Source: a virus
Direction: 5' to 3' (one strand)
Length of the DNA: 27,150 nucleotides
Virus record (IMG/VR): IMGVR_UViG_3300030389_001492
Coordinates: 1 to 27,150 of that record
Part shown: positions 1 through 13,711 of the stretch, piece by piece
How positions within the stretch are numbered: position 1 is the stretch's first letter
How the letters are laid out: each line of letters begins with the position of its first letter
The notes under the pieces: generated by a model
What the model was told of the DNA's origin: nothing
Seen by the model: the letters and a program-made list of their open reading frames with translations, nothing else
Database searches by the model: none
Translations under genes and position numbers: made by a program

Positions 1-106
1 AAAACGAGAAAACAAATCGAGAGTTGATAAGGGTCAAGAAACATATGACGTAAACGATTTTTGGTTAGAAAAAGTTGAAGTGTTTTCAAGGGAGCAAGCA
101 AGATGA
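1..106 (+). CDS. 3' end of an unidentified gene (5' end outside the window)
   Basis: The frame with codons starting at base 2 is open from the window edge to a TGA at 104-106 and encodes about 34 residues, ending in FSREQAR. The TGA overlaps the ATG of the next gene (ATGA). That arrangement recurs at many true gene junctions in this arm, and it is the main reason to believe this is a real gene end. The visible residues are charged and hydrophilic and carry no motif I recognise. A chance open frame of this length is quite possible, so confidence is moderate. Confidence 0.5.
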   Translation, partial: KRENKSRVDKGQETYDVNDFWLEKVEVFSREQAR

Positions 107-1257
107 ATGAGATACTAACAAGTAGTATACAAGCTACAGATATAGATCGTAAGATATACAAACTCTTTGATCTATTCCATGATCACGAGGGCGATACTTA
201 TACGACCACATTTGAAGTGCCTACACTAGAAGTGCCACAGGACTACAACATAGGTTTGATTGTAGGGTCAAGTGGGTCAGGTAAATCATCAATATTGAAA
301 CAGTTTGGTGAGGAGTATAAACCTACATGGATTCGTGATGCATCAATTGCTAGTCATTTTGGTGATGTAGACAATGCTATTGAGAGATTGAGTGCAGTTG
401 GTCTCAATAGTGTGCCTACATGGGCAAAGCCTAGACATGTCGTATCAAATGGCGAGGGTTTCAGGGCAGACTTGGCACGTAAGTTAAGTTATGGTGCAGT
501 CATTGATGAGTTTACATCAGTAGTCAATCGTAATGTAGCTAAGTCATGCAGTGCTAGTGTGGCTAAATACATACGTAAGCAAGGACTATCGCACATTGTA
601 TTTGCATCGTGCCATGATGATATTATAGATTGGCTTGAGCCTGATTGGGTATATAACACAGACACAAAACAACTTGTGTCGAGGGGGTCTCAAAGGCGAT
701 GGGTCAGACCCACAATTGAGCTTAGTATTTACAGATGTCAGCGAGACAAATGGGAAATGTTTAAGAACCATCACTATCTAAATCACAAGCTACCACATGC
801 TACTCGTTCATGGATAGCTAAGTGGGGAGATGAACTTGTAGCATTCGCATCATCTATATGTCTTCCCGGTCGTACCCCCGGTTTATATGAGGGCGACATT
901 CGTATGAAGTGGCGAGAGTGTAGGACAGTATGTCTACCTGACTTTCAAGGCATTGGTTTAGGCACACGATTGTCTGATACAATTGCTGACATGCATATCG
1001 AACAAGGCTTACGATATTTTTCTAAAACTAGTCACATACGCATGGGCGAGTACAGGCAGAAGTCACCTTTATGGAGACCGACTGCTACAAACTTGGTGGA
1101 TAGATCAAAGAGTGGCAACAGTAAGAGTTGGCATCACTTTCCACTAGAAAAGAAACGCATATGTTATTCACATGAGTACATAGGCGAAAACAGGAAGTCT
1201 TACGATCCTAAATGGCTAGAGGTATACAATGCAAGTAAACAAAATCAAGTGCAGTAG
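103..1257 (+). CDS. ABC-type ATPase fused to a GNAT acyltransferase
   Basis: A 384-residue two-domain protein. The N-terminal half is a P-loop ATPase: Walker A GSSGSGKS at residues 55-62, a signature-like VSNGEGFR at 114-121, Walker B ending in D135-E136 (GAVIDEFTS), and a switch histidine H171 in ASCHDD. This is the order of ABC-type ATPases. The C-terminal half (about 207-345) looks like a GNAT acyltransferase, with the acetyl-CoA-binding loop DFQGIGLGTRL at 280-290. An HHYLNHKLPHATRSW segment at 223-237 is reminiscent of Mom-like acyltransferases that modify DNA bases. No membrane segment is seen, so it is probably cytoplasmic. Its start overlaps the preceding stop. The substrate is unknown; nucleic-acid modification is my inference from the ATPase-GNAT pairing (compare TmcA, which modifies tRNA), while protein or small-molecule acetylation remains possible. 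The domain calls are firm and the role is not. Confidence 0.75.
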   Translation: MNEILTSSIQATDIDRKIYKLFDLFHDHEGDTYTTTFEVPTLEVPQDYNIGLIVGSSGSGKSSILKQFGEEYKPTWIRDASIASHFGDVDNAIERLSAVGLNSVPTWAKPRHVVSNGEGFRADLARKLSYGAVIDEFTSVVNRNVAKSCSASVAKYIRKQGLSHIVFASCHDDIIDWLEPDWVYNTDTKQLVSRGSQRRWVRPTIELSIYRCQRDKWEMFKNHHYLNHKLPHATRSWIAKWGDELVAFASSICLPGRTPGLYEGDIRMKWRECRTVCLPDFQGIGLGTRLSDTIADMHIEQGLRYFSKTSHIRMGEYRQKSPLWRPTATNLVDRSKSGNSKSWHHFPLEKKRICYSHEYIGENRKSYDPKWLEVYNASKQNQVQ

Positions 1258-3444: not shown

Positions 3445-3587
3445 TGAATGAGTTACCTTATGATATTAAATCATTCTTAGACGAAATAGGTGTGCGTGAA
3501 ACAGTTACTATTATAAAAGAGGAGCTACCACGCATCGAATATGACATTTGGCTACCATCCTGTAAGGGTGAAGAGCCACCATTTTAA
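3444..3587 (+). CDS. Very small hypothetical protein (47 aa)
   Basis: An ATG at 3444 overlapping the previous stop by one base (TAATG) opens a 47-codon frame ending in TAA at 3585-3587, just before the ribosome-binding site of the recombinase gene. The product starts MNELPYDIKSFLDEIGV and is acidic. The tight fit between two genes and the coupling-type start support it. No family is recognised. Confidence 0.5.
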   Translation: MNELPYDIKSFLDEIGVRETVTIIKEELPRIEYDIWLPSCKGEEPPF

Positions 3588-3600
3588 ATTAGGAGATATT

Positions 3601-4728
3601 ATGAACAAGAAAATACCAAAATATACTAAAGTAGTACGTGATTCTGATGGAAGTACATGGTGGGAGTACAATCCACCTATAAAGGCAGTAGTGGTGGGCA
3701 TCGTGCATCCCATGAGGTGTGAAGCAAATCGCTATGCATCCTACAATAAGATACAAGAGCAGAATAATAAGCTAGATAAGTGGCAAAAGTTCGTTATTGC
3801 ACAGAAAATACCAACTGACAAAAGCACACTTTATGCTTTATTTAGATTTTATCAAACTACACACAGTTTCAACAAGTTACGTGAGCAAACTAGGCGAGAT
3901 TATCGCAATGTTATGCATAATGGCTTGATGACTAAGATAAAAAGTGGCAGAACACTACAAAATATTAAGCTAGGTAAGCTATGTAGGTCAGACATTAAGT
4001 CAGCATACGAAAAATGGCTAGAAAGAGGGGTGAGAACTGCTAACATTACCCATTCTGTATTGCGTAAGGTACTAAATGTCGCACTTGAGTACGATATTAT
4101 CGTGGCTAACCCTTGTTTGGGCATAGAAAAACAAAAAGAGGTGGCTAGGAAAGTAGTTTGGACACAAAAAGAGGTGCGATTGTTCCTAGAAACTGCATAT
4201 AGCAAGTGGAAGTGGAGAAATATAGGCTTAATTACTCACATGGCTTACGAATGGGGGCAGAGAGTGGGTGATATGCGTGAGTTGAAGTGGTCATGTGTCA
4301 ATCTAGATGACAAAGTTTTGACACTTGAGCAATCTAAACGTAGATCAGAGGTGTTTTTACCTATTTCTGATGATTTAGTTCGTATGTTGAAGCAACAACA
4401 TGAAGATTGGGGATGGCAAGAGTACGTTGCACCTAATGTATCTGCATATAAGGGTGTATATAGACCTTACGATAAGACACAAATATCTACAAAAGCAAAT
4501 GAGATCAAAGATAAGTGTGGATTGTCACCTGATTTGAGGATTATGGACATGAGAAGAACAAAAATCACAGAGATGGTTGAGGGTGGTGTTGATATAACAC
4601 AAATTATGTCAGTAAGTGGGCATCAGAACGTGCAATCGGTGACTCCATATGTAAAACACACACTAAAATCAGCAAAAAGTGCGTTGTCTAAGACACAATC
4701 ATTAAATTTTTATGGTGGTGAGTCTTGA
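3601..4728 (+). CDS. int: Tyrosine recombinase / phage integrase
   Basis: A 375-residue protein. The ATG at 3601 follows AGGAG at 3591-3595 and is preferred over an upstream in-frame ATG at 3541, which lies inside the 47-aa gene. An N-terminal SAM-like core-binding region spans about 55-170 and the catalytic domain about 185-360. Catalytic residues are R221 (in GQRVGDMRELKW), K246 in the beta-hairpin (LEQSKRR), R318 (in MDMRRTK), H341 (in SGHQN) and the nucleophile Y350 (TPYVKHT). The usual first histidine of the HxxR box is M315. Tyrosine recombinases integrate and excise phage genomes or resolve DNA multimers. No att site could be identified. The gene sits directly upstream of the replication module. 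Confidence 0.9.
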   Translation: MNKKIPKYTKVVRDSDGSTWWEYNPPIKAVVVGIVHPMRCEANRYASYNKIQEQNNKLDKWQKFVIAQKIPTDKSTLYALFRFYQTTHSFNKLREQTRRDYRNVMHNGLMTKIKSGRTLQNIKLGKLCRSDIKSAYEKWLERGVRTANITHSVLRKVLNVALEYDIIVANPCLGIEKQKEVARKVVWTQKEVRLFLETAYSKWKWRNIGLITHMAYEWGQRVGDMRELKWSCVNLDDKVLTLEQSKRRSEVFLPISDDLVRMLKQQHEDWGWQEYVAPNVSAYKGVYRPYDKTQISTKANEIKDKCGLSPDLRIMDMRRTKITEMVEGGVDITQIMSVSGHQNVQSVTPYVKHTLKSAKSALSKTQSLNFYGGES

Positions 4729-11666: not shown

Positions 11667-11829
11667 AGTATTCTTAATGCTTGACATTGATGAGGAAGAA
11701 AATATACTTCCCATTGACGATGGCATTGAGGATGCTATACAAGGCATCATTGAAAATTTAATTTTTGATGTTGATGGAATTGAGATAAAGAGCATAAAGG
11801 TGACACATGACAAACGCATTACCAACTGA
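11656..11829 (+). CDS. Small acidic protein (57 aa)
   Basis: An ATG at 11656, with GAGGA a few bases upstream, opens a 57-codon frame ending in TGA at 11827-11829. It overlaps the end of the DUF3310 gene by 11 bases and the start of the reductase gene by 23, filling what would otherwise be a 140-base gap in a gap-free operon. The product (MKVKVFLMLDIDEEE at the start) alternates hydrophobic and acidic residues, suggesting a small alpha/beta fold. No family is recognised. Confidence 0.6.
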   Translation: MKVKVFLMLDIDEEENILPIDDGIEDAIQGIIENLIFDVDGIEIKSIKVTHDKRITN

Positions 11830-13711
11830 TTATCAAAACTTCATAGCTGTTTCTCGCTATGCAAGATGGATCGCTGAAGAAAACAGAAGAGAAACATGGA
11901 CAGAAACAGTATCAAGATACATGGATTACTTATGTAGTAAGATTAATATAGACAATGCTACTAAAGGGTATCTGTGGGAAGCAATACATAGCTTACAAGT
12001 AATGCCATCTATGAGAGCATTGATGACTGCGGGTGTTGCACTTGATCGTGACAATACTGCGGGATATAACTGTGCTTACTTGCCTGTTGATGATCCCAAA
12101 TCATTCGATGAAGCTATGTACATATTATTATGTGGTACAGGTGTTGGCTTTAGTGTTGAAAGACAATACACAGAAAAGTTACCTGAAGTTCCTGATAAGT
12201 TATATAAGTCTGATACGTGCATTAAAGTAAAGGATAGCAAAGAGGGATGGGCAAAGTCCTTACGTATATTGATATCACTTCTATATGCGGGTGAGATACC
12301 AACTTATGATGTTTCAAAAGTACGTCCTGCGGGATCTAGACTGAAAACATTTGGTGGTACTGCATCGGGTCCCGGTCCACTAGTGCAATTGTTTCAGTTC
12401 GCTATCAATACGTTTGAGAATGCTAAAGGACGTAAACTTAATTCATACGAATGTCACAGTCTTATGTGTAAAGTAGGTGATGTAGTTGTATCAGGTGGTG
12501 TTCGTAGGTCAGCAATGATTAGCTTATCTAATTTATCTGATATAAGAATGCGTCATGCTAAGTCAGGTGAGTTTTGGAAGACTGCACCTCATATGAGTAT
12601 GGCTAACAATAGTGTTGTTTATACAGACAAGCCTGATGGTGCTACATTCTTACGAGAGTGGACTTCACTTGTTGAATCTAAGTCAGGTGAACGTGGTATA
12701 TTCAATAGAATTGCCGCACAAAAGCAAGCTGAGAAGAATGGAAGACGCACAGCAGATATAGATTTTGGTTGTAATCCATGCTCTGAGATTATATTGCGTC
12801 CATATCAGTTCTGTAACCTCACTGAGGTGGTAGTTCGTGATAAGGATACCTCTGATGACCTAGCGAGAAAGGTGCGACTAGCAACGATTCTAGGCACAGC
12901 ACAGGCGACATTAACAAAGTTCCCATATCTTAGAAAAGTATGGACAGACAATACAGAGGAAGAAAGACTTCTTGGTGTTAGTCTTACAGGCATCATGGAC
13001 AATGGTTTAACTAGCTCTACTTACGATTTGAAACACATACTAGAAGAATTAAAGCAAGTGGCTATTGATACAAACAAAGTTTATGCTGAGAAGTTTGGAA
13101 TACCACAATCTACTGCTATTACATGTGTGAAGCCTAGTGGTACAGTATCGCAGTTGTGTGATTCAGCTAGTGGCATTCACCCTAGATATTCAGAGTATTA
13201 TATAAGAACTGTAAGAGGTAGCAATCACGATCCACTTACACAGTTTATGAAAGATCAAGGTGTTCAAAATGAGCCTTGTGTAAATAAGCCTAATGAGAAT
13301 ACTGTGTTTAGTTTTCCTTTTAAGTCACCTCGTACATCCACAACTGCATCTACTATGTCTGCTATAGATCAATTGGAATTATGGTTGACTTATCAAAGAC
13401 ATTGGTGTGAGCATAAGCCTAGCTGTTCTGTTTATGTTAGGGATCACGAATGGGCAGAGGTAGGGGCATTTGTTTACAAACATTTTGATGAAATGTCAGG
13501 TGTATCTTTTTTTCCTAAAGATGATCATGTATATCAACAAGCACCATACAGTGAGTGTACTAAAGAAGAATATGAAGAAGCAATAAAAAAAGCCCCATCT
13601 AGAATAGATTGGAGCTTGTTAAAGGACTTTGAGAAAGAGGATACCACCTCTTCTAGTCAGACATTTGCTTGTAGTGGAGATTCCTGTGAAGTTGTAGATA
13701 TCGGTGCATAA
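11807..13711 (+). CDS. Class II (adenosylcobalamin-dependent) ribonucleotide reductase
   Basis: A 634-residue enzyme that makes deoxynucleotides from ribonucleotides using coenzyme B12. The active-site motif NPCSE at 323-327 gives N323, the thiyl-radical cysteine C325 and E327. C89 (GYNCAY) and C336 (FCNLTE) form the reducible pair, and a C-terminal C622/C627 pair (ACSGDSC) would shuttle electrons. The 11-residue C325-C336 gap and 5-residue tail-pair gap match the monomeric Lactobacillus leichmannii enzyme, which is about 100 residues longer. GGVRRSAMISLSN (230-242) and PSGTVSQLCDSASG (443-456) are further family motifs. No ATP-cone is seen at the N-terminus. It starts inside the 57-aa gene and ends in a TAATG overlap with the resolvase gene. 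Confidence 0.95.
   Translation: MTNALPTDYQNFIAVSRYARWIAEENRRETWTETVSRYMDYLCSKINIDNATKGYLWEAIHSLQVMPSMRALMTAGVALDRDNTAGYNCAYLPVDDPKSFDEAMYILLCGTGVGFSVERQYTEKLPEVPDKLYKSDTCIKVKDSKEGWAKSLRILISLLYAGEIPTYDVSKVRPAGSRLKTFGGTASGPGPLVQLFQFAINTFENAKGRKLNSYECHSLMCKVGDVVVSGGVRRSAMISLSNLSDIRMRHAKSGEFWKTAPHMSMANNSVVYTDKPDGATFLREWTSLVESKSGERGIFNRIAAQKQAEKNGRRTADIDFGCNPCSEIILRPYQFCNLTEVVVRDKDTSDDLARKVRLATILGTAQATLTKFPYLRKVWTDNTEEERLLGVSLTGIMDNGLTSSTYDLKHILEELKQVAIDTNKVYAEKFGIPQSTAITCVKPSGTVSQLCDSASGIHPRYSEYYIRTVRGSNHDPLTQFMKDQGVQNEPCVNKPNENTVFSFPFKSPRTSTTASTMSAIDQLELWLTYQRHWCEHKPSCSVYVRDHEWAEVGAFVYKHFDEMSGVSFFPKDDHVYQQAPYSECTKEEYEEAIKKAPSRIDWSLLKDFEKEDTTSSSQTFACSGDSCEVVDIGA

Follow-up and report, generated by a model that had tools for sequence, protein, structure and literature searches.

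The stretch of DNA analysed here (the window) comprises 27,150 nucleotides of a 28,473-bp virus record; the DNA polymerase it encodes shares 58.7% identity with that of Puniceispirillum phage HMO-2011. It opens with the 3' end (...DVNDFWLEKVEVFSREQAR) of a small ORF on the + strand (positions 2 to 106), the remainder of which lies beyond the contig end. The stop codon of this ORF overlaps the start (ATGA) of a + strand gene spanning positions 103 to 1257, which begins with ATG, contains no internal stops and encodes, by ORF call and translation, a 384-aa protein combining an ABC-type ATPase and a GNAT domain (ABC-GNAT). A 63-aa ORF (1229 to 1420, + strand) overlaps the 3' end of the gene and is likewise arranged in loci L004, L005, L006, L008 and L016. 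Further downstream, a tyrosine integrase gene (3541 to 4728, + strand; PHROG integrase, 2.3e-42) forms the right border of an accessory cassette whose left border, seen in L004-L008 and L016, is a DUF932 gene. In HMO-2011 itself the DUF932 gene abuts the integrase gene, and in the close relatives of the window the two are separated by the cassette, which holds ABC-GNAT and many small ORFs; ABC-GNAT is thus accessory cargo carried beside the replication genes. The earlier note described it as an early gene, a label drawn only from its place in a + strand block that precedes the integrase, primase, helicase and DNA polymerase genes. The ABC-GNAT copy of locus L009 is 88% identical to residues 141-379 of the window protein despite a primase that is just 32% identical, which suggests movement of the gene from phage to phage.

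The N-terminal ABC-type ATPase domain (aa 1-200; 103 to 702, + strand) carries a Walker A motif, GSSGSGKS (aa 55-62; 265 to 288), a signature-like VSNGE (aa 114-118, with SNGE at 115-118; 442 to 456), a Walker B motif, GAVIDE (aa 131-136, with AVIDE at 132-136; 493 to 510), and a switch-histidine motif, CHDD (aa 170-173; 610 to 621), all on the + strand. The GNAT domain follows (aa 203-367; 709 to 1203, + strand), with an HHYL motif (aa 223-226; 769 to 780) and the acetyl-CoA pyrophosphate loop QGIGLG (aa 282-287; 946 to 963), both on the same strand. In an alignment of 52 relatives the key residues of these motifs are invariant or nearly so: G55, S57, G58, G60 and K61 in Walker A; S115 and G117 in the signature, where position 114 (mostly L) and E118 are nearly invariant; D135 and E136 in Walker B; C170, H171 and D173 around the switch histidine; H224 and Y225, an HY pair that is likewise invariant across the Mom rows; and Q282, G283 and G285 in the CoA loop.

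One protein therefore contains a GNAT at its C terminus and, ahead of it, an intact ABC-type ATPase, as the earlier note had read from the letters, and several lines of evidence bear this reading out far beyond chance. The Pfam Acetyltransf_1 match of the window protein (22.4 bits) exceeds the gathering score of 20.7 and its ABC_tran match (19.4 bits) stays below the cut-off of 25; family-wide, at E<=0.1, ABC_tran is found in 52/52 members and Acetyltransf_1 in 51/52. The PHROG 11143 profile covers residues 8-365 (1.6e-106). The AlphaFold model of the whole protein has a mean pLDDT of 90.0 and a pTM of 0.84, and VIA-align matches it to ABC cassettes over aa 1-200 (for example 1l2t, aa 1-197) and to GNATs over aa 205-367, each with Z about 13; a model of the GNAT domain on its own reaches pLDDT 92.2 and pTM 0.86, with GNAT matches at Z 11-13. 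Finally, dN/dS against six close relatives is about 0.1 (0.095-0.158), a sign of purifying selection that maintains the gene as protein-coding. PADLOC returned weak P-loop matches and nothing more.

Relatives of ABC-GNAT were found by tblastn in 51 GenBank phage records and by a scan of IMG/VR in at least 590 stretches. A single scan of genome contigs gave one relative, L016, on a contig of an archaeal MAG, which is probably viral because its gene order is that of the phage. The tree places the family on two sides of one branch (support 100/99), the clade of the window and a sister clade. The two domains are fused except at five loci, where each has an ORF of its own; phages with this split form are pT24 and those of Thomasclavelia, Oenococcus and Streptococcus. 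An additional stand-alone GNAT accompanies ABC-GNAT in L033, L034 and L036; we considered it as a Mom and rejected it, as it is a paralogue of the GNAT of ABC-GNAT. The window protein is clearly homologous to the published exemplar pT24 (tblastn 1e-48, 37.6% identity), and this homology, the full-length profile match, and the intact motifs and CoA loop place it in the published ABC-GNAT family, PHROG 11143. The pairing of ABC and GNAT is the same, but pT24 has two ORFs where the window has one fused gene, and the window differs from the published family in being a marine HMO-2011-type phage in which no ParB-type partner is seen.

The genomic context of the family is what the present analysis adds, and one element of it is the exchange of ABC-GNAT with Mom, the GNAT-fold enzyme with which phage Mu modifies DNA (PF25680). 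These comparisons were picked after the data had been seen. In Porphyromonas, phage007a carries ABC-GNAT in the slot where phage012a has a Mom relative, the left flanks being 91.7% identical in DNA over 3.2 kb and the right ones sharing a 93-bp match. In Arthrobacter phages, EastWest (ParB and ABC-GNAT) and StevieBAY (ParB and a Mom-like gene) are colinear on both flanks, and their ParB genes are homologous with differing tails. In the HMO-2011-type lineage to which the window belongs, the slot between DUF932 and integrase is occupied by ABC-GNAT in L004-L008 and L016; in L159 and L239 it contains a Pfam Mom gene (about 1.7e-37; L159 and L236 being the same contig), and a Mom gene lies ahead of the integrase in L237 and L238. 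Besides, in the Mu-like Pseudomonas phage Komp_PAO1_1, ABC-GNAT and the small ORF that precedes it (the mini-domain described below) directly follow a Com-like zinc-finger ORF; in JD024 a Com-like ORF precedes Mom.

The two genes also occur together: Mom adjoins ABC-GNAT in L035/L037 (about 30 nt apart) and L057 (4-nt overlap), lies near it in L056, L100 and L009, and both are present in PX29. Mom was found within about 5-6 kb of ABC-GNAT in 6/80 loci (one below the Pfam cut-off) against 1/80 for a DUF932 control, a weak enrichment (p = 0.058). A neighbour in L077 matched Mom at 25.3 bits, short of the 27.1 cut-off, and is not counted in the argument as a Mom. A shared slot reveals a common accessory site and is not proof of the same chemistry; the HMO-2011-type slot also houses ADP-ribosylglycohydrolase genes (L171, 1458-2318; L217, 7113-7961), so it may be a general counter-defence site. 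Taken together, the exchange and co-location with Mom and the Com-like ORF argue for placing ABC-GNAT in the same functional class, that of anti-restriction DNA modification.

A second element is specific to the sister clade, where a ParB-type gene or a mini-domain gene lies directly upstream of ABC-GNAT, usually overlapping it, in all 14 loci examined, twelve of which seeded the HMM of the tail described next and two of which (L012 and L027) were found by that HMM. The ParB-type genes (for example L014, 4291-4950, and L024, 4147-4701) end in a conserved C-terminal tail of about 40 aa, the mini-domain. In L003 and L021, from Komp and Porphyromonas phages, it stands alone as an ORF of 42-49 aa, and an ORF of this kind bears the annotation 'acr candidate'. 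Homologous ParB genes differ in their tail by neighbour, zinc-ribbon-like next to Mom (L147, 3181-3711) and of the ~40-aa type next to ABC-GNAT (L024, 4147-4701). In the clade of the window, the tail HMM found a ParB or mini-domain partner beside ABC-GNAT in 0/93 loci. Nor does such a gene lie directly upstream there, as judged from L004-L008 and L016, the upstream gene of the window being truncated by the contig end; its homologue, a 75-aa ORF in L005 (4246-4473), is neither ParB-like nor a mini-domain. As reported in PMC12704722, ParB-type folds of phages frequently occur in fusions with DNA methyltransferases, and GTP is bound by a bacterial fusion of ParB and an acetyltransferase; that work, of which the ABC-GNAT family is not the direct subject, is in keeping with an enzyme that modifies DNA having a ParB-type partner.

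We thus propose that ABC-GNAT is probably an ATP-gated, DNA-directed acyltransferase that modifies bases of the phage's own DNA and lets it escape host restriction. The idea is not new: the ABC-GNAT pairing, with pT24 named, was predicted in PMC7824862 to acyl-modify a DNA base, a prediction that its passage on the pairing credits to a 2013 paper. The earlier note had likewise considered acylation directed to DNA or RNA, possibly protecting phage DNA; the DNA part now gains indirect support from the Mom exchange, the Com-like and ParB-type neighbours, the Mom adjacency and the published prediction, and the RNA part does not. The five loci with separate ABC and GNAT ORFs also speak for the proposal; against it stand the limits of slot sharing, the choice of comparisons after the fact, the weak enrichment of Mom, the lack of a ParB-type or mini-domain neighbour in the clade of the window, and the profile and fold comparisons given below, which do not single out Mom. 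DNA as the substrate, a dimer clamp, gating by ATP and an anti-restriction role are what we infer, and a mechanism may be outlined as follows. Conservation of the signature and Walker motifs implies, from what is established for ABC ATPases, a dimer of the ATP-sandwich type. Two ABC domains would close on DNA, each signature facing the Walker A motif of the partner subunit; ATP binding and hydrolysis would place the DNA or distort it, and the tethered pair of GNATs would pass an acyl group of a CoA thioester to a base, at an exocyclic amine. In the sister clade, the ParB-type protein with its ~40-aa C-terminal tail would probably load the enzyme onto DNA; the clade of the window has no such neighbour. 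More tentatively, and with somewhat less than even confidence, we suggest that ABC-GNATs may be interchangeable in function with Mom, which would give phages a second way of modifying DNA with a GNAT; in one clade the ParB-type loader would guide the enzyme, to which its C-terminal tail would be matched.

Judged from its sequence, ABC-GNAT is neither Mom nor TmcA. It shares with Mom the GNAT fold, the invariant HY pair, the genomic slot and, in relatives, Com-like or ParB-type neighbours, but has an ABC ATPase in addition, its acetyl-CoA loop is of the canonical QxxGxG form, and the Mom HMM PF25680 gives no match to the window protein at E<=1 (Mu Mom itself scores 253 bits). A profile comparison of its GNAT with Mom is marginal (hhalign probability 3.5%, E 0.012), aligned just around the HY motif. 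The earlier note had asked for a fold search against Mom, TmcA and other GNATs; it confirmed the GNAT fold, but the match to Mom 8bv8 (Z 11.5, rmsd 4.3, 158 residues) is tied with those to RimI and small-molecule GNATs, and we rejected the search as a means of telling Mom from a generic GNAT. From the nucleotide-binding subunits of ABC transporters, which have the same cassette fold and motifs, the protein differs by its fused GNAT, and no permease was recognised nearby.

The same fold matches bear on two other readings. ABC-GNAT might make or transfer a small-molecule group for another DNA-modification enzyme, as a step in a pathway instead of the enzyme acting on DNA. The top GNAT matches do include small-molecule GNATs, Mom adjoins ABC-GNAT in L035/L037 and L057 as noted above, and a formyltransferase-like gene lies directly downstream of ABC-GNAT in Komp, Porphyromonas phage007a and Gordonia Axumite, as does an aspartate-decarboxylase family gene in Jace. 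We nevertheless consider this unlikely: no gene of either type was recognised in the neighbourhood of the window, and the ParB-type partners suggest a protein that itself works on DNA. The downstream genes (L003, 7068-7685; L021, 5900-6373; L026, 1805-2452; L022, 5879-6304) may hint at the group transferred. Alternatively, the GNAT could acylate a protein of the host, such as its RNA polymerase or one involved in defence, for takeover or disarming, with the ABC domain serving as an ATP-dependent switch. The best fold matches include the protein GNATs RimI and NAA60, the gene lies within the early block, and phiKMV-like phages provide a precedent in the GNAT Rac, used on RNA polymerase (PMC7824862); this too is improbable in our view, as it leaves the Mom exchange, the Com-like ORF and the ParB-type partner unexplained.

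Acylation of RNA, either of tRNA as by TmcA or of aminoacyl-tRNA as by GNAT toxins, is very unlikely: although the Foldseek matches of the GNAT model include the toxins KacT and AtaT as well as TmcA (tRNA(Met) cytidine acetyltransferase, 2zpa), in which a GNAT fold and an ATPase likewise share a chain, the ATPase of ABC-GNAT is of the ABC type, its matches at E<=1 include none of the TmcA-specific Pfam families (N-terminal and helicase-type domains), there is no RNA context and the genomic context favours DNA modification.

If DNA-directed acylation is correct, the DNA of many marine and cultured phages would carry an uncharacterised acyl mark, with consequences for studies of restriction, sequencing and defence, and ABC-GNAT would be a DNA-modifying GNAT gated by ATP. 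Thanks to the Mom exchange, the published prediction can be put to a direct test in cultured pairs such as EastWest and StevieBAY. Other genes of the window may also be mentioned. A DoxX-like membrane protein (1417-1824; Pfam 24.7 bits, cut-off 23.6) is encoded two genes downstream of ABC-GNAT, and a T5orf172/MUG113 (GIY-YIG-like) protein lies within the cassette (2021-2509). Farther along, a ribonucleotide reductase (11807-13711) matches a B12-dependent insertion domain.
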